The notes beneath the pieces were generated by a model. It made no database searches. It saw nothing but the letters and a program-made list of their open reading frames with translations, and was not told where the DNA came from. The translations under genes were made by a program, and so were the position numbers. Positions 191-41,050 of a stretch of 41,050 nucleotides of DNA are shown here, one piece after another (position 1 is the first letter of the stretch; every line of letters starts with the position of its first letter). Origin of the DNA: a virus; the IMG/VR virus record IMGVR_UViG_3300049893_000824, positions 1-41,050 of that record. One strand, given 5' to 3'.

Positions 191-2668
191 TCAGGGTGTT
201 TCTCCCTCGTCCTGACCCGTGGCATCCTTGTAGAGCTTCAACACCTTGCCACGCTCCGTCGGGAGATCGCACCCCTCCGGTCTGCGCTCCCCGGTGAGCA
301 GCCTGCAGAGCCCGTTGCCGCTCGTGATGCCATAATCTTTGATGATCTTGCGTGCCTCCTCCAGGCGGCCCTCCTCGGTCAGACCCTTGGGTTTGTACGC
401 GTCAAGATAGCTGCGATCCTTGTGCTGGGCGATCGTCCTCCTGTTGACCAGCCTTCTCAGCGCCTTGTTGAGGTCAGCCGCCTTTGGGTTGAACTTGCTC
501 TTGATCCTCACCCTAACCGCATCAAGGAGGACATCCGTCAAGATGCCGTCGAGTTTCGTTGCCTCGCTCTTCTGGAACACCTCAAGGATCGCGGTCTCAA
601 GGGCCTGGGATCGCTTCGCCTCTTCTTCCTCCAGGGCCTTATCCGCCTCGGCTTGCGAGGCCGGGACCAGGGCCGGGCCGACGAGCGGCTTCCCAGTCAT
701 CTTGTCCAGGATGGGCACCCCGAGCTTGGTCGTCCGGTTCTGCGGGAACTCTTGGATCTTGGCCGTCGAGATGATTCCGTCCTCTCGCTTCCCGTAGGAC
801 GACTTGAGCTGGGTCAGGTTGAGCATCTTGGACGAGTCCTCGGTGATCGTCAGGATCGAGTCGAAGCACGCCGTGAGGGCGGTGCTGCCGCGGACCCGGT
901 CCATGCCCGTGACTGGAACGCCACTCTGCATGGACTTGCCCGTGTGGTGGGTGGCTGCCCATGCGACGCCGTATTTGTCGCTGGCGTTCGCCAGGGCTCG
1001 AATGGCTGGCGTGACCACGGCCGAGTCGTTCTCGTTGGCCGAGCCCAGACAGATGCTCAGCGTGTCGAGGATGATGAGCGCCGGAAGTTGGCCGTGCTTG
1101 ATCTTATACTTGAGGATGAGCGTCTCGATCGAGGGGGCTCGCTTGACCTCGTCACCTAGTTCAGGTCCCCTGCTCACGATCTCCAGCGGGAACTTGCCCT
1201 TGCGTGGAAGCTTCGCGTAGGTCCTGTAGGCAGCGAGACGTCCGGTCCATGTCCTGTATTTCTCGGCCGAACAGATGAGCACGCCACCGGGCGTGGTCTT
1301 GAAGTTACGCCATGGCAACCCATGAGTGAGCGTCAAGGCGAACTCAGCCGCATGAAGCGACTTGCCAGCGCCGGGCGCCGCCACGAGTAGGGTGCAACCG
1401 CCCTTCGGGATCAGGTCCTGGATGACCCACTCGGTCTCGGGCAGTTGGTCGATCTTCTCCTCGTCGAACCATTCGCCGCCAAACGGATCCTGATCCGTGA
1501 GTGCAACGGACCGCAGGAGCTCCTCGATCGAACCGCCCGCGTGATAGGCCTGGATGATTCGCGCCTGCAGCGCCTCCGGGGTCTCTGGCGGCTTGGACTG
1601 GGGAGCCTTCGGCACAATCTCGTGGCCCGGCGCCATCGGCGGGTAGGCTGGCTCGACGCGCTCCTGCGCCTTGAGTTCGCGCTCCTGCTCCTCCTCATAC
1701 TCGCGGATCGCGTCGCGCTCGGCCTGATCGTCCGGGTCCGGCGGCGGCTCCATGGGCAGGAGTTGCGTCGCCTCGACAAGTTCGAGCAGCTTGTCGAACG
1801 TGCCGCCATTGGCGAGCCAGTCCACAACGTCGCCACCCTTGGGCAGGCCGGGCAGCCTCAGCACACTCACGCTCTTCACCCGGGCGAGCCGCAGCGCCTC
1901 GATCACGTCGCGGCAATAGTCCTCGCCCGGCTCGTCGTTGTCCGGCAGGATGCAGATGTTGGCGCCCGCGAGCGGCGCCCAGTTGGTCTTGCGTGCGGCC
2001 TTGGCCCCGCCGGACGATGTCACGGCGAGCAGGCCGATCTCGGCCAGTGCCTCGGCGCACTTCTCGCCCTCGACCACGAACACGTTGCGATACTTCGGGT
2101 CGGTGCGCGATAGCTCGAACAGGTTGTAGATCGGTCGCGGCTCAGGCATGGCGCCAAGGACCACCTTGCTGCCTTCGTTGAACAGCGGCCTGTAGGTCTT
2201 CTCGCCGTTCCACAGTTGAATCCGCAGCACGGTGCCAACGTCGTAGCCGGACTCGTTGCGATAGGTGTAGCAGCCGGTGACCTTGCCGGTCCGCGAGTAT
2301 CTGGCGATCGCTGCGTTCAGGTCAGGGAACTCCTCGGGCTTGGACTTGGGTTCAGGGGTGCCGTAGCTCAGCTTGGAGGCGCCCGGACCACGCGACGGGA
2401 TCCTCGGGCTCGGAAGCGCATAGATCCGAGGGACGCCTCCGGTCAACCGGTCGATGGCGCCAAGCACTGCCTCCTGGCTGCACCCGGCGAAGCAGTGCGC
2501 TACGTAGCCGCGCTTCGTGTCGGGGGCCCGCTTGATCGACAGCGACGGGTTGTTGTCGTCGTGCGCAGGACAGCAAGCCATGCGCGAGTCGCCGTCGCCG
2601 CGGACGCCGCTGAGATGCGAGAGAACCAGGTCGAACTGGTCGTGGAAGGAAGCAGAGATTCCGGTCAT
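191..2668 (-). CDS. Primase-helicase (zinc motif, TOPRIM, RecA-like ATPase)
   Basis: This 825-residue protein probably makes primers and unwinds DNA at the phage fork. An N-terminal zinc motif of the phage primase type is visible (C33-P-A-H36-D-D, then H58-C-F-A-G-C63). A TOPRIM fold follows with VEGEK at 199-203 and PDNDEPG at 242-248, giving the catalytic Glu and DxD. After an acidic, proline-containing linker comes a RecA/RepA-like ATPase with Walker A APGAGKS at 431-437 and Walker B LIILD at about 531-535, then a THHTGK segment. A GTG-started extension to 2854 is open but reads through two hairpin/terminator structures and has no family-like sequence. I therefore start at ATG 2668, just before the conserved region. 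The ribosome site is weak. No polymerase gene accompanies it, so host polymerase is probably used. Confidence 0.88.
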   Translation of the reverse strand: MTGISASFHDQFDLVLSHLSGVRGDGDSRMACCPAHDDNNPSLSIKRAPDTKRGYVAHCFAGCSQEAVLGAIDRLTGGVPRIYALPSPRIPSRGPGASKLSYGTPEPKSKPEEFPDLNAAIARYSRTGKVTGCYTYRNESGYDVGTVLRIQLWNGEKTYRPLFNEGSKVVLGAMPEPRPIYNLFELSRTDPKYRNVFVVEGEKCAEALAEIGLLAVTSSGGAKAARKTNWAPLAGANICILPDNDEPGEDYCRDVIEALRLARVKSVSVLRLPGLPKGGDVVDWLANGGTFDKLLELVEATQLLPMEPPPDPDDQAERDAIREYEEEQERELKAQERVEPAYPPMAPGHEIVPKAPQSKPPETPEALQARIIQAYHAGGSIEELLRSVALTDQDPFGGEWFDEEKIDQLPETEWVIQDLIPKGGCTLLVAAPGAGKSLHAAEFALTLTHGLPWRNFKTTPGGVLICSAEKYRTWTGRLAAYRTYAKLPRKGKFPLEIVSRGPELGDEVKRAPSIETLILKYKIKHGQLPALIILDTLSICLGSANENDSAVVTPAIRALANASDKYGVAWAATHHTGKSMQSGVPVTGMDRVRGSTALTACFDSILTITEDSSKMLNLTQLKSSYGKREDGIISTAKIQEFPQNRTTKLGVPILDKMTGKPLVGPALVPASQAEADKALEEEEAKRSQALETAILEVFQKSEATKLDGILTDVLLDAVRVRIKSKFNPKAADLNKALRRLVNRRTIAQHKDRSYLDAYKPKGLTEEGRLEEARKIIKDYGITSGNGLCRLLTGERRPEGCDLPTERGKVLKLYKDATGQDEGETP

Positions 2669-2675
2669 GAGAGGC

Positions 2676-2703
2676 TTGCGACGCCAGGGTTCTCTGCTAC
2701 ACT
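2676..2703 (+). promoter_or_regulatory. Putative sigma70-like promoter, unit 1
   Basis: TTGCGA (2676-2681) and TACACT (2698-2703) are separated by 16 bp and match four of six consensus bases each. It points right, opposite to the primase gene, and lies 35 bp before the first terminator hairpin. The match is only moderate, so the position in front of a terminator is the main support. Confidence 0.35.
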
Positions 2704-2709
2704 GCACAA

Positions 2710-2783
2710 GCACGAGTCTTGTAGCTTGCAGTGCACCAGAGCCCCGGCAGGGCGTCGAATATCCGGCCGGGGCTCTTCTCTTT
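2710..2783 (+). ncRNA. Candidate small RNA 1, antisense to the primase leader
   Basis: Transcription from the promoter-like sequence at 2676-2703 would start near 2710 and stop at the terminator ending near 2783, giving an RNA of about 74 nt. It contains TTGTAGCTT at 2719-2727, which recurs in the second unit. The DNA at 2700-2733 can also fold (CACTGCA/TGCAGTG plus CAAG/CTTG with a bulge). It could act on the primase mRNA leader, which it overlaps in antisense, or in trans. The layout recalls lambda oop RNA beside replication genes, but no sequence similarity is claimed. Confidence 0.35.
2738..2783 (+). terminator. Intrinsic terminator, plus strand, unit 1
   Basis: A perfect 10-bp stem AGAGCCCCGG (2738-2747) / CCGGGGCTCT (2767-2776) is followed by TCTCTTT. 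No T-run lies on the other side, so it should act rightward. No plus-strand protein gene precedes it. Confidence 0.65.
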
Positions 2784-2818
2784 ACCGCGGCCCCCGGCCC
2801 GGGACAAGAGCCCCAGCC

Positions 2819-2847
2819 TTGACCGAGACCGCATCCGCCTGCATCAT
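2819..2847 (+). promoter_or_regulatory. Putative sigma70-like promoter, unit 2
   Basis: TTGACC (2819-2824, five of six consensus bases) and CATCAT (2842-2847, four of six) are separated by 17 bp. It points right and lies 30 bp before the second terminator hairpin, copying the arrangement of unit 1. Confidence 0.4.
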
Positions 2848-2853
2848 CCCCCA

Positions 2854-2917
2854 CGGCTTGGAGATGATAGAGGGCTCCCCCACTAGGGTTTGTAGCTTTG
2901 CCTAGTGGGGGCTTTTT
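2854..2917 (+). ncRNA. Candidate small RNA 2, antisense to the primase upstream region
   Basis: Transcription from the promoter-like sequence at 2819-2847 would give an RNA of about 64 nt ending at the strong terminator at 2877-2917. The nonamer TTGTAGCTT recurs here at 2890-2898, in the loop of the terminator hairpin, where it would be exposed for base pairing. Repetition of the same promoter, nonamer and terminator plan within 240 bp is the main evidence. Confidence 0.4.
2877..2917 (+). terminator. Strong intrinsic terminator, plus strand, unit 2
   Basis: A perfect 11-bp stem, CCCCCACTAGG (2877-2887) pairing with 2901-2911, has a 13-base loop and is followed by CTTTTTCTC. This is a textbook rightward terminator. 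On the minus strand the hairpin lacks a T-run. Confidence 0.8.
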
Positions 2918-3133
2918 CTCGCATCCCGCGGAGAATCGCTCTGGCCGAGCGCGCGCGATAGCGCTGTGCGAGGATGGACTGCCCCAAGGAGCCTACCCTG
3001 ATCGCGGCAGCCGTTGGGGTGGACTGCCGCGACGCTGGTTCTTCGCCGATGGTCAGTCGGCGCGGCGCGCGATGAAGCTCCGTCACAGGTGGGGGCGCGC
3101 CACCAGCAGCCCCTCGGGGCGTCCGGTGTTCGA

Positions 3134-3484
3134 TCAGTCGCTCTCAGGGTGGGGCAGCTTCTTCGCCGCCTTCGGCGCGTTAGCCGCATCAGCCCTGGCT
3201 AGCTCCAGGTTGAGTTCCAAATGGATCTGCTCGTATCGAGCACGCGACCGCGCGCGCATACAGAGCAAGCATCCGCCGCCATGCACGTAGCGGATATCCG
3301 TGTCGCAGGTTCGGCACTTCTTGTTGCTGCGATAGACACGGTGCCCGGCCCGAGCAGCACGCAGCTTCGCGCTGCGAGCGCCTTCGGTCGGCTCCTGCTG
3401 GATCAGGTCGTGGTCGTAGAGGTTGATTGACTTGCCGCGATAGAGCGCGCGCATCGCGTTCTTCGCCCTGAGATGGTGACTCAC
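3134..3484 (-). CDS. Small zinc-ribbon protein, unknown function
   Basis: The product has 116 residues. Two CxxC pairs (CRTC and CLLC, about 17 residues apart) in its middle suggest a structural zinc site, followed by basic residues and a helical, charged tail. I choose the GTG at 3484 because it overlaps the stop of the preceding gene (GTGA) and has GGGAGA about 8 bases upstream, a typical coupled start. An open frame continues upstream to 3748, but its translation is a shadow of the neighbouring gene. It belongs to the leftward replication operon. The zinc pattern resembles that of phage HNH/endonuclease VII-type proteins, but I see no catalytic histidine motif, so no activity is assigned. 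Confidence 0.65.
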   Translation of the reverse strand: MSHHLRAKNAMRALYRGKSINLYDHDLIQQEPTEGARSAKLRAARAGHRVYRSNKKCRTCDTDIRYVHGGGCLLCMRARSRARYEQIHLELNLELARADAANAPKAAKKLPHPESD

Positions 3485-3804
3485 AGGATCTTCTCCCAGC
3501 GGCCTGACTTGATGGTGCCGTCGCGATAGCGCAGCTCCTTGAGTCGCGCATCGAGACACGCATCGAGCGGCAGGCCGAGTTGCTCGCTCGATGCCGTGAG
3601 CAGGATCAGTATGTCCGCGATCGCCTTCGCTACGCGCTCCGGCCTGCGCAGCGCCACGTTCGCTTCGAGTCGCGCCATGCGCGTCACGAGCTGGTAGTGC
3701 TTCTCGACGAGCGATGTCTTGTGGACTAGCTCGCGCGCGTCGAGCCACGCCCTGGCGCGTTGCCAGAGCGGAGGCTCGACTTCCTTAGCTTTGCGCGATG
3801 CCAT
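3481..3804 (-). CDS. MazG-like protein (putative)
   Basis: The product has 107 residues and is mostly helical. The segment AKAIADILILLTASSEQLGL followed by a run ending in a DARLKELRYRDG-like stretch resembles the second half of MazG-type nucleotide pyrophosphohydrolases, where an ExxD-like helix and a helical pair form the fold. The full metal-binding ExxE..ExxD signature is not clear, so the enzyme may be divergent or the likeness structural only. MazG proteins hydrolyse NTPs or (p)ppGpp and are common in phages. It begins two bases after the SSB-like gene and overlaps the next gene by four bases, so it is co-transcribed with the replication genes. Confidence 0.45.
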   Translation of the reverse strand: MASRKAKEVEPPLWQRARAWLDARELVHKTSLVEKHYQLVTRMARLEANVALRRPERVAKAIADILILLTASSEQLGLPLDACLDARLKELRYRDGTIKSGRWEKIL

Positions 3805-3806
3805 GA

Positions 3807-4070
3807 TCAGAACGGCAGCGCAGGATCGTCACTCGCGGCAGGCACGCGCGGACCCTTATCGTCGCGCGGCTCGAAGCACGAGATCATCACGCTGTCCGAG
3901 CCCTCCTTGAAGGGAAGCCCGGCGAGGTTGATCGCACGCTGCAGCACGAGGAACATGCCGCCCTGCTCGCCCTCGAAGGCGGCGCCGATGTTCAAGTAGC
4001 GCTTCTTGGTCTCGCCGCCCTTCTGGTAGGTGCCGGTGACTGCAACTAGGTCGTAGAGTTTCTTAGCCAT
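3807..4070 (-). CDS. Putative phage single-stranded DNA-binding protein
   Basis: The product has 87 residues. It opens with MAKKLYDLVAVTGTYQKGGE, a beta-strand pattern seen in short phage proteins annotated as SSB-like, and ends in an acidic, hydrophobic tip (DDPALPF). That tip resembles the C-terminal protein-interaction tail of bacterial SSB (DDDIPF). The body could form a small OB-like barrel, but this is inference from strand pattern and tip. It overlaps the RusA gene by eight bases and stands among recombination genes, which fits a role in coating single strands for the annealing protein and primase. Confidence 0.5.
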   Translation of the reverse strand: MAKKLYDLVAVTGTYQKGGETKKRYLNIGAAFEGEQGGMFLVLQRAINLAGLPFKEGSDSVMISCFEPRDDKGPRVPAASDDPALPF

Positions 4071-4620
4071 CTTCGTTCTCGGTTGTGGTGGGTTCGCCCG
4101 CGGGTTCAGCCGGGGCTTCGTTGGTTGCGATGGACACGGTCACCCTCACCGCGCCACCTTCGGCGGGCCGCGACGCAAGACGCGCCGAGACCACGCAGAA
4201 TCGTTTATCATTGATCGCCATGCAGTCAGCCAGGGCGTCGATGCCAGACTTCATCCGGCCGACGAGGTTGTCTACGTCGTAGCTCCGGCGCGATGGCGCC
4301 GCGAACACGAGGCCAAGCCAGAGCGCTCGCCCGCTATCGCGCAAGGCCTTCACGATGGCGACCGTGTCCGCCGAGCCAGCCATCTGTTCCAGCACGGCAG
4401 CGCGCACTCGCGCCTTTGCGCGGATGATCGCGTTGGCACGGGTGCGGTAATGGATCGCCGCGTTCGGGCTCAACTCGATTGCGGGCCACGGTAGGTCAAA
4501 CCAGACCGAGGGCGCCCCGGATTCTCGGTCGAGCAGATTGCCCTGGGCCGTGAGCCTGAGTAGGTCTACCGCCGCGAAATACTTCGACGGCACCGGCTGT
4601 GGCGTAGGGCGCTTTCTCAT
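4063..4620 (-). CDS. rusA: RusA-family Holliday junction resolvase
   Basis: The product has 185 residues; RusA proteins are usually about 120-150, so this one has extra N- and C-terminal tails. The family core is clear: LSPNAAIHYR at about 51-60, then SYDVDN at 113-118 supplying the metal-binding aspartates, followed by K124, D128 and IND at about 136-138. RusA cuts four-way junctions symmetrically, which in phages resolves recombination and replication intermediates before packaging. It is the first gene of the leftward operon, and a sigma70-like promoter lies directly upstream. The C-terminal 25 residues are rich in Glu, Pro and Thr and look disordered. Confidence 0.85.
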   Translation of the reverse strand: MRKRPTPQPVPSKYFAAVDLLRLTAQGNLLDRESGAPSVWFDLPWPAIELSPNAAIHYRTRANAIIRAKARVRAAVLEQMAGSADTVAIVKALRDSGRALWLGLVFAAPSRRSYDVDNLVGRMKSGIDALADCMAINDKRFCVVSARLASRPAEGGAVRVTVSIATNEAPAEPAGEPTTTENEDG

Positions 4621-4630
4621 GTGCTCGTGG

Positions 4631-4660
4631 ATTCTAGTGGGGGATCGACTTCCGAAACAA
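4631..4660 (-). promoter_or_regulatory. Putative promoter of the leftward replication operon
   Basis: On the minus strand TTGTTT (4655-4660) and TAGAAT (4631-4636) are separated by 18 bp. TAGAAT matches five of six -10 bases. It lies directly upstream of the resolvase start at 4620, so the untranslated leader would be very short. A palindrome at 4660-4676 adjoins its -35 element. Confidence 0.4.
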
Positions 4661-4726: not shown

Positions 4727-5011
4727 ATGAAAAAGCTCCACAATCATCCGCAGCCCGTGCAAGGCTGCCTCCGTTGCACCGCCGAACGGCTCAACCAGAT
4801 GCTCATCTGGGAGCCGCTACTCGTACGCAATGCGTGCGACCCTGTGACGGCACGCGCGTCGCGCGTTCACGGCTTTCTGGTTCGCGGCCCGTTCCTCACA
4901 GCGATCACCCGCGACGGGATGATCTCCGCGAGCGAGGCCACGTTCTTTCGCCTCGGCTCGGACACGCCGCTCGACATCCACAAGATGTCATCTCAGCAGG
5001 AGGACGTCTGA
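4727..5011 (+). CDS. Small zinc-finger-like protein, unknown function
   Basis: The product has 94 residues. The N-terminus, MKKLHNHPQPVQGCLRCTAE, offers His and Cys residues (H-x-H, C-x2-C) that could bind zinc. The rest shows no family I recognise. I choose the ATG at 4727 because GAGGAA lies seven bases upstream; a GTG at 4703 is in frame but has no ribosome site. It is the first gene of the only rightward operon and ends one base before the exonuclease gene, so the two are probably coupled. A regulatory or accessory role in recombination is possible but not shown. Confidence 0.65.
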   Translation: MKKLHNHPQPVQGCLRCTAERLNQMLIWEPLLVRNACDPVTARASRVHGFLVRGPFLTAITRDGMISASEATFFRLGSDTPLDIHKMSSQQEDV

Positions 5012-5012
5012 G

Positions 5013-5819
5013 ATGAGCAGCGCCTTCCGCGACACGCTCGCCTCGACCGGCTCGGGCGGGCACTGGTACGACTTCCGCGGCGAGCGCATCGACACGGTGC
5101 TCTCGACCAAGGGCGTGCCAATCAAGCCGACCGTAGTCCATGCGCGCAAGCTCGACTTGGCGCCGGGCGTCACGACCATCCTCAAGGCAGCAAACCGCGA
5201 GGCGATCAACAGCTATCGCGAGGGCCAGATCCTCGCCGCCGTCAAGCGTCTGCCGCAGCGTCCGACCGAGCCCGATGCCGACTGGTTCGCTCGCGTGATC
5301 GAGGGTAGCAAGGAGCACGCGAGCAGCGCCGCCGACTTCGGCAGCGAGTTGCACGCGCGCGTCGAGGCTGGCCTCGGCGACCCGGTCAACGAGGACGTGA
5401 TCGTGACCGCCGTGGCAGCCGAACTCGATCGCGTGATCCCGGGCAGCCGGTTCGACTGGCGCATGGAAGTGCCCGCAGTCTCGCCCTATGGCTACGCCAC
5501 GCGCGCAGACCTGTGGCACCCGGGATCCCGCTTCCTCGTGGACATCAAGACCAAGGTTGGCCCGCTCGACGAGCAGGCGATCTGGGCCGATCACCCGATG
5601 CAGCTCGCCGCGACCGCGGCAGCACTGCTGTCATCCGTGCCGCCGACCGACTGCCGTCACGCGATCCTGTTCCTGCGCCGCGACCAAGTCGAGGCCCGAC
5701 TCGTCGAGGTGCCAACCGAGGACATTGCCACCGGCTGGTCCTGCTTCAAACACCTGCTCGCGTTCTGGCAACTGCGCAACCGCGCGCGGCCATCGTGGGC
5801 GCAACCGATTCCCTTCTGA
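5013..5819 (+). CDS. PD-(D/E)XK exonuclease (RecB/lambda-exo type)
   Basis: The product has 268 residues. The nuclease core is visible: a helix containing H114 (SELHARVE), then RADLWHP with D166, and VDIKTK with D177 and K179, giving the D-x(10)-D-x-K pattern of the PD-(D/E)XK fold. A later Q197 (HPMQLAA) matches the QxxxY-like motif of Cas4/RecB nucleases. It would degrade one strand of duplex DNA from an end to expose a 3' tail for the ERF annealing protein encoded next. An AGGAGG-like ribosome site precedes the ATG. The pair resembles lambda Exo/Beta in role, not in sequence. Confidence 0.8.
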   Translation: MSSAFRDTLASTGSGGHWYDFRGERIDTVLSTKGVPIKPTVVHARKLDLAPGVTTILKAANREAINSYREGQILAAVKRLPQRPTEPDADWFARVIEGSKEHASSAADFGSELHARVEAGLGDPVNEDVIVTAVAAELDRVIPGSRFDWRMEVPAVSPYGYATRADLWHPGSRFLVDIKTKVGPLDEQAIWADHPMQLAATAAALLSSVPPTDCRHAILFLRRDQVEARLVEVPTEDIATGWSCFKHLLAFWQLRNRARPSWAQPIPF

Positions 5820-5848
5820 TCCTAAGTCCAACCAACTGAAAGCTAGCC

Positions 5849-6472
5849 ATGAAGAACATCATCACCGCACTTGCCGCCGCTCGCTCCGAGATGGCGTCCC
5901 CCAAGAAGTCCGCCAACAACCCAGCCTTCCGCAGCAAGTTCGCTGACCTTGCCGCGATCCTCGAAGTCACCGAGCCGGTGCTCGGCAAGAACGGACTTGT
6001 CGTTACGCAGACCATCCGCGTCGATGGCGAGCACCACCTGCTCGACACGACTCTGTGGCACACGTCCGGCGAGAGCCTCGTCAGCACCGCCCTGCTGGAG
6101 CCTGAGAAGTGCACGCTCCAGGGACTCGGCTCGGCTATCACCTACCTGCGTCGTTACCAACTGCAGGCGCTGCTCTGCCTCGCCGCAGAGGATGACGACG
6201 GCAACGCAGCCTCAGGGGCGCCGAAGACGACGCCGACCCAGCGCGTCGAGCGCGCGCCAGCGCCCGCGCCAGCAACACCAAGCGAGCCAGCCTCGGCGGC
6301 GGCCCTTGCCATGATCGAGGCGATCGCGAAGGCGACCGACCTTCCCACGCTGACCAAGATCGTGGCGCCGCTGTCCGACGCTCAAGGCGAACTCGCGAAG
6401 ACCCTGTCGGCCAGTGACAAGTCGCATATCCGCACCGCGTTCGTCGCGCGCCGCGGGGAGGTCGCACAGTGA
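5849..6472 (+). CDS. erf: ERF-family single-strand annealing protein
   Basis: The product has 207 residues. Residues 1-120 carry the ERF family pattern: NNPAFRSKFADLAAILE at about 23-39, NGLVVTQ at about 48-54, and QGLGSAITYLRRYQLQALLC at 91-110 followed by AAEDDDGN. An Ala/Pro/Thr linker follows (about 122-155), then a small helical C-terminal domain (about 157-207). ERF proteins anneal complementary single strands and promote genome circularisation or concatemer formation, as in phage P22. The neighbouring exonuclease probably supplies the single strands. The C-terminal domain is repeated as the next gene. Confidence 0.88.
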   Translation: MKNIITALAAARSEMASPKKSANNPAFRSKFADLAAILEVTEPVLGKNGLVVTQTIRVDGEHHLLDTTLWHTSGESLVSTALLEPEKCTLQGLGSAITYLRRYQLQALLCLAAEDDDGNAASGAPKTTPTQRVERAPAPAPATPSEPASAAALAMIEAIAKATDLPTLTKIVAPLSDAQGELAKTLSASDKSHIRTAFVARRGEVAQ

Positions 6473-27819: not shown

Positions 27820-27857
27820 CAGAAGAATCCGCAGCGCCTCACCACAAGGCGCTGCGG
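27820..27857 (-). terminator. Intrinsic terminator between head and tail genes
   Basis: A perfect 11-bp stem (27829-27839 CCGCAGCGCCT / 27847-27857) has a 7-base loop. Read leftward it is followed by ATTCTTCT, a modest T-rich tail. It lies between the second cement protein and the esterase/tail gene and could reduce transcription of the tail genes relative to the capsid genes. Confidence 0.65.
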
Positions 27858-27867
27858 AGAAGCAGGC

Positions 27868-28392: not shown

Positions 28393-28418
28393 GGGCCGCG
28401 CCGTCTAAGACGCGGCCC
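28393..28418. other. Hairpin between the two cement-protein genes
   Basis: An 8-bp stem GGGCCGCG/CGCGGCCC (28393-28400 and 28411-28418) with a possible inner stem CGTC/GACG. It lacks a T-run on either side, so it is not a clear terminator. It may slow RNA decay or serve as a processing point between two paralogous structural genes. Confidence 0.5.
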
Positions 28419-40290: not shown

Positions 40291-40819
40291 CGCCCTCCCC
40301 CTTGACCGGGGCCAGGGCGAACTCGGCGGCGAACGCCAAGTTGCGGCGGATGACGATGCGTCCGGCCTCGATGAGTTCGACGAGGGCGGTCTCGAAGGAT
40401 TCGCTCACCTGGCCCAGGGAGCGACCGGCGAGTCTCTCGTCTGTCCGACGGAAGTAAAGGCCCTCCACCAGCTCGTCAGCGACCCGGTCGAGGGGAAGGT
40501 AAATGCCACCGGGGTGCTTGAGCATCTCGGCCATGACAAGGTCGCGGGCCCACGCATCCTCCTCGCCATACGGACTCGGGTTCCGAATCCTGGCGAACTC
40601 GGAGCACCCGATCTTGGCGAGCTCGATGAGGTCGTCGCACTCCACAGGCACGAGGTCTCGGTAGCTCTTCCAGTCGGGCTTGCCGAGCTCTTCGGCTAGA
40701 TCCCCCAGGCGACGGCCCCAGGGGTGGAGGAAAAGGAGGTCTTCGAGATTGAGACGCAGATCCTTCAACTGATCGGGGGTGAGGACCGGCTTGGCCGGTT
40801 CGCGTGAAGATTCACTCAT
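40286..40819 (-). CDS. Hypothetical protein, 177 aa; paralogue of the following gene
   Basis: I choose the ATG at 40819 because AGGAAG lies eight bases upstream; an open frame to 40930 has no such support. The product is helical and acidic. Its segments LGDLAEELGKPDWKSYRDLV and LIEAGRIVIRRNLAFAAE recur in the 98-residue neighbour, which lacks about 75 middle residues. The alternation of helices with a strand-like GRIVIR suggests a small winged-helix fold, but this is only an impression. First gene of the right-end transcript. Confidence 0.68.
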   Translation of the reverse strand: MSESSREPAKPVLTPDQLKDLRLNLEDLLFLHPWGRRLGDLAEELGKPDWKSYRDLVPVECDDLIELAKIGCSEFARIRNPSPYGEEDAWARDLVMAEMLKHPGGIYLPLDRVADELVEGLYFRRTDERLAGRSLGQVSESFETALVELIEAGRIVIRRNLAFAAEFALAPVKGEGE

Positions 40820-41050
40820 AGCTTTGCTTCCTAAAATGACGTTGCCATTCTCCGATCCCGCCGCGGACAGCCCAAGGTAGGTTGCCGCCGAGATCGTGGC
40901 GCCACGGGGCGCGTAGACGGGTTGTATCACAAGGCGATCCGGGGACGCAAGGCTCGGTTGAAGGAACGCACCCGCCGAGCCCTGCGCTGATCCTTATCGA
41001 GTCTGGGGGGCGGACGGCGCGGAGCGCCGCCGGGGCGCAGCCCCTTGGAT
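40820..41050. other. Non-coding right end with hairpins
   Basis: No gene is visible. Stems occur at 40951-40957/40975-40981 (GGCTCGG/CCGAGCC), 41015-41020/41024-41029 (CGGCGC/GCGCCG) and 41032-41036/41040-41044 (GGGGC/GCCCC). None has a T-run. Joined to base 1, the last four bases complete a palindrome GGATGA-AGTA-TCATCC. The region may be continuous with the left-end hairpin cluster. Confidence 0.7.
40922..40950 (-). promoter_or_regulatory. Putative promoter of the right-end cluster
   Basis: On the minus strand TTGCGT (40945-40950) and GATACA (40923-40928) are separated by 16 bp, with a TG just before the -10 as in extended -10 promoters. The -10 overlaps a small palindrome TTGTGATACAA (40922-40932), a possible operator. 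The leader to the ATG at 40819 would be about 100 bases. Confidence 0.35.

Follow-up and report, generated by a model that had tools for sequence, protein, structure and literature searches.

Apart from the OOP RNA of the lambdoid phages, few antisense RNAs directed against replication genes are known in phages. In phage lambda, OOP (the pO-oop-tO unit) is a short RNA with its own promoter and intrinsic terminator that opposes the replication operon; it and cII overlap by 52 bases at the 3' end of the latter (PMC12197685, PMC5869508). Plasmid genes for countertranscribed RNAs (ctRNAs) and RNAII occupy the gap that precedes a replication gene, against which they are directed (PMC3155836, PMC4485353). 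In pSYSA of Synechocystis, the antisense RNA asRNA1 is encoded beside the primase-helicase replication gene CyRepA1 (PMC9978351).

The stretch of DNA considered here (the window) is a virus record of 41,050 bp with 64% GC, whose portal, capsid and terminase match those of the BPP-1/epsilon15 podoviruses and place it in that group. The contig IMGVR_UViG_3300047309_000083, of only 6.8 kb, is 84% identical to it in the portal and is taken to be of the same genus. According to a codon-usage model, almost every gene is on the minus strand. Rightward genes are found only at 4727-6472, a segment that includes an exonuclease and an Erf-like annealing protein, and from 7 to 41 kb all genes run leftward. 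The leftward replication genes begin with that for a RusA-like resolvase and end, after a gap of 465 bp, with that for the primase-helicase (Table 1); the highest-ranking promoter-like site of the minus strand, located before the RusA-like gene, is likely to be the start of this operon. The gap is internal to the operon and directly upstream of the primase-helicase gene. Within it, on the strand opposite to the primase and overlapping no called gene, are two short rightward units, each consisting of a promoter-like site and an intrinsic terminator.

The preliminary description of this region likened its layout to lambda oop, and the parallel is a fair one: in both cases, a short unit ending in an intrinsic terminator is directed against a replication operon from a position beside a replication gene, with a promoter of its own in lambda and promoter-like sites here. 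However, there is one unit in lambda and two here, cII is absent and the units are clear of any gene whereas OOP reaches into the 3' end of cII, and no sequence relation to OOP was found. With the repABC ctRNA and RNAII of pMV158, the units share a position in the gap immediately upstream of a replication gene, a 5' tail followed by a terminator hairpin, and complementarity to the (here putative) leader. In contrast to those systems, there is no repA, repB or copG and no leader terminator on the sense strand, and the gene opposed encodes a phage primase rather than a plasmid Rep protein. The repABC ctRNA lies between repB and repC, whereas the neighbours here are a gene for a zinc-ribbon-like small protein and that for the primase-helicase, and the score of the Rfam model RF00489 (ctRNA_p42d), 14.6 bits, is below its cut-off of 50. 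As tested, the units fall outside both the OOP and the ctRNA families. The pSYSA asRNA1 is similar in being a cis-antisense RNA that adjoins a primase-helicase replication gene, but it is 153 nt long and complementary to the small gene ssr7036, and not, as here, to a non-coding leader. Like countertranscript RNAs, the units are opposite and complementary to the putative leader of a replication gene and end in an intrinsic terminator, and they are plausibly a new member of the cis-antisense RNAs that control replication. If this is true, the presence of such a pair opposite a primase leader in BPP-1/epsilon15-group phages would point to a wider use by phages of plasmid-style countertranscript control of replication, and a systematic survey of the gap preceding the replication gene is feasible across the group.

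Table 1. Features of the gap upstream of the primase-helicase gene and of the adjoining replication genes
Feature	Position	Strand	Remarks
Primase-helicase gene, opposed by both units	191..2668	-	PHROG DNA primase/helicase, AAA_25
Non-coding gap, 465 bp, between primase-helicase and next leftward gene	2669..3133	.	empty in codon-usage gene model
Unit 1 promoter-like site, TTGCGA-16-TACACT	2676..2703	+	rank 37/82,050; local shuffle p 0.054
Long hairpin in putative primase mRNA leader	2681..2752	-	ends 12 nt before start codon
Predicted short RNA 1, ~74 nt	2710..2783	+	weak 5' hairpin, then terminator; predicted from promoter-like site and terminator
Nonamer TTGTAGCTT, copy 1	2719..2727	+	3' arm of weak 5' hairpin, unit 1
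Intrinsic terminator 1	2738..2783	+	stem 2738-2776, 15 positions, one mismatch; tail TCTCTTTA
Unit 2 promoter-like site, TTGACC-17-CATCAT	2819..2847	+	rank 9/82,050; local shuffle p 0.005
Two strong hairpins of putative leader	2841..2920	-	
Predicted short RNA 2, ~64 nt	2854..2917	+	~23-nt 5' tail, then terminator hairpin with 13-nt loop; predicted as for RNA 1
Promoter-like site facing unit 2, TACAAA-19-TATCAT	2864..2894	-	rank 4/82,050; good -10, poor -35
Intrinsic terminator 2	2877..2917	+	stem 2877-2911, 11 perfect pairs, 13-nt loop; tail CTTTTTCT
Nonamer TTGTAGCTT, copy 2	2890..2898	+	terminator loop, unit 2
Gene for zinc-ribbon-like small protein, adjoining gap	3134-3454	-	
MazG-like gene	3481-3804	-	
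Leftward replication gene	3807-4070	-	
RusA-like resolvase gene	4063-4593	-	
Top minus-strand promoter-like site, TTGTTT-18-TAGAAT	4631..4660	-	before RusA gene; rank 2/82,050

Two rightward intrinsic terminators had been reported from this gap, and both are indeed there, as hairpins with T-rich tails. Under a stringent definition that requires 10 or more net pairs, 8 or more GC pairs and 5 or more T in 8, there are three terminators on the two strands of the genome, namely the two in the gap and one at 27858-27828 on the minus strand, whereas dinucleotide-shuffled genomes contain a mean of 0.03. Among 296 co-directional gaps of 60-800 bp in contigs of related phages, a strong terminator is present on the opposite strand in three (~1%) and on the same strand in 14. 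With two of the genome's three sites located here, against the shuffled expectation and the rarity of such sites in related gaps, the pair is real and unusual. A terminator scan in which loops are limited to 8 nt or fewer missed both hairpins. Elsewhere in the genome, strong hairpins at 28393-28418 and 27828-27858 occupy short gaps between structural genes, the latter being the leftward terminator.

No rightward gene is present upstream for the two terminators to serve, and the codon model supports no plus-strand protein gene in the gap, in agreement with the earlier statement that none precedes either terminator. A 13-codon open reading frame (MIEGSPTRVCSFA) at 2864-2905 of the plus strand lies within unit 2 and ends in the terminator stem; a GGAG touches its start codon, a spacing too short for normal initiation.

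Each terminator has a promoter-like site at a suitable distance ahead of it. Sites were ranked over 82,050 positions with an approximate sigma70 weight matrix, and the local shuffle p value is the frequency of equally good sites. Both hexamer pairs named in the preliminary description are present, with the ranks and p values listed in Table 1. A 9-of-12 consensus scan, which returns matches at the rate expected by chance, finds the site of unit 2 and not that of unit 1. The two sites support the view that each unit may have its own promoter, that of unit 1 appearing weak. The hairpins are 139 bp apart and the promoter-like sites 143 bp; a second unit had been placed 240 bp after the first, but this figure is the span of the whole element and the units are separated by ~140 bp. 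The minus-strand promoter-like site that faces the unit 2 site had been missed. It is a candidate promoter for the primase, and its predicted start point and that of unit 2 are ~3 bp apart.

The nonamer previously seen in both units, with its second copy in the terminator loop, is confirmed and occurs exactly twice in the window. When the sequences are shuffled, two RNAs of such size and composition have a 9-mer in common in 2.8% of cases (p ~0.028). As proof that one unit is a duplicate of the other, TTGTAGCTT was rejected, with p ~0.03 and no longer stretch in common. Because it is part of a stem arm in unit 1 and of a loop in unit 2, it argues weakly at best for common descent or a common seed. 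Of the earlier notion of two related small RNAs, then, the two short rightward units stand as the best reading, while their relatedness comes down to one 9-mer in differing structural contexts.

We tentatively favour, with slightly less than even confidence, the explanation that the two units exert cis-antisense and opposing-promoter control over the primase. Each would pair a promoter of the sigma70 type with an intrinsic terminator in the gap ahead of the primase-helicase gene and would yield an untranslated RNA, of ~74 and ~64 nt, respectively, that is an exact complement of the primase mRNA leader, itself presumably transcribed. These RNAs would lower or time primase synthesis in cis, their pairing with the leader either blocking translation or exposing the leader to RNase III, and transcription of unit 2 may additionally oppose that from the facing leftward site. 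This reading is preferred because there are two strong rightward terminators with promoter-like sites ahead of them and no rightward gene upstream; the geometry also matches that of the plasmid countertranscripts and is similar to that of OOP and pSYSA asRNA1. Against it are the weak promoter of unit 1, searches that found no homologue of the gap, the absence of such terminators in more distant primase relatives, and a predicted accessibility of the start codon that does not change cleanly on binding of RNA 1. Furthermore, RNA 2 would be outside the primase leader if the facing site at 2864-2894 were the sole promoter of the primase. Control of the primase leader by two rightward units had been suggested before; the terminators, the gap and the orientation of the units hold, the promoters are supported, and the interpretation as a whole, with its putative transcripts, pairing and effect on the primase, is partly supported.

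The main rival, which we consider somewhat doubtful, is an insulating double terminator. Here the tandem terminators would stop rightward antisense transcription from passing through the leftward replication genes, and the promoter-like sites would be chance or minor features. The terminators are by far the strongest part of the evidence, and a source for such transcription can be envisaged: the top sigma70-like site genome-wide, TTCACT-15-TAAAAT at 40811-40837 of the plus strand, is located inside a leftward gene and would read antisense toward the gap and the primase if the genome were circular. No terminal repeat that would prove circularity is shown in the record, however, and no rightward gene lies upstream. 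The suitable spacing of the two promoter-like sites, one with a local p value of 0.005, also speaks against insulation.

It is unlikely, in our view, that the inverted repeats act chiefly on the sense strand, as hairpins of the primase leader involved in translation control or RNA processing, with the plus-strand terminators as a by-product. The minus strand of the gap does fold even more strongly than the plus strand, a feature absent from the preliminary description. As minus-strand RNA, 2681-2760 has a predicted folding energy of -41 kcal/mol (z -3.9) and 2841-2920 one of -36.1 kcal/mol (z -4.4), the second and fifth most extreme, respectively, of 2050 genome windows, and the gap contains overlapping alternative inverted repeats, one of which involves the first primase codons. 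As the fold is strong on both strands, structure alone cannot decide which of them matters. The T-rich tails, however, are present at both hairpins on the plus strand only, with none on the minus strand, and speak for rightward termination; by a hand estimate, the chance of a T-rich 8-mer at this base composition is ~0.7% per hairpin.

An elaboration of cis-antisense control, which strikes us as improbable, would have the podovirus control its own replication in the manner of a plasmid. Tandem countertranscripts with a common loop seed, together with facing promoters whose start points are ~3 bp apart, would make the primase leader subject to a dosage-sensitive switch, with the region of the start codon refolded when RNA 1 binds. 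Refolding of the leader by RNA 1 as such a switch was considered and rejected: the alternative pairing exists, but the predicted accessibility of the start codon does not change cleanly.

We regard it as very unlikely that the gap next to the primase gene is a replication origin or carries hairpins for primosome assembly, with the nonamer pair possibly a protein site. A large non-coding gap does adjoin a replication gene, and the cumulative GC skew has a maximum at about 2-4 kb and, roughly half a genome away, a minimum at about 22-23 kb, but a skew maximum conventionally marks the terminus and not the origin. There is also no iteron array, the nonamers number only two in the window, and the T tails would be left unexplained. 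The direction of the genes is unchanged at the skew minimum. Slightly less probable again are small RNAs that act in trans on messages of the host or of other phage genes and use the loop nonamer as their seed. RNA 2 does expose the nonamer in its 13-nt loop, and the size is typical of phage sRNAs, but no other translation start in the window forms a duplex better than those of random stretches once the number tested is allowed for, and the window has no further copy of the nonamer complement, so that trans action on other phage genes found no support.

Searches of phages, of plasmids and of 16 related viral records found no DNA similar to the gap, and exact-pattern scans of IMG/VR for the unit 2 loop and the unit 1 5' hairpin gave no match. 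The CCACTAGG/CCTAGTGG stem was rejected as a family marker after a scan returned 70 loci with unrelated loops and contexts. No Rfam family reached its gathering score in the window, matches with E values up to 10 being sub-threshold and of unrelated kinds. Primase-based searches of IMG/VR and GTDB genomes recovered only distant relatives without the double terminator; L006 and L013, more distant in their primases, have no such terminators upstream.

Some members of the same phage group that have other replication genes also carry hairpins on the opposite strand just upstream of the replication initiator, which lends the favoured reading some support. In L260 and L269, such a hairpin, its T tail weak, precedes an O-like initiator. 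In the L088 type, an opposite-strand hairpin, again with a weak T tail, is found 40-80 bp before the replication initiator in 15/15 loci (L300-L314). In all 15, its flanks, GGTTAGA... and ...CGTTTCGCTT when read against the direction of the gene, are conserved, and their alignment shows compensating double changes in five of the 25 predicted pairs of the aligned region, two of them in the hairpin. Because the flanks are conserved and the T tail is weak, this hairpin may act on either strand, and its resemblance to the gap element is best taken as analogy, not homology. Many related phages have, next to the tail tubular gene, a recurring sense-strand terminator of a form like GGGGCCGT.GGGAAACCACGGCCCC-TTTT (for example, L264 36495, L055 15636, L077 16027, L266 27666 and L265 30743), and bidirectional variants of it are present in L051, L084 and L088.
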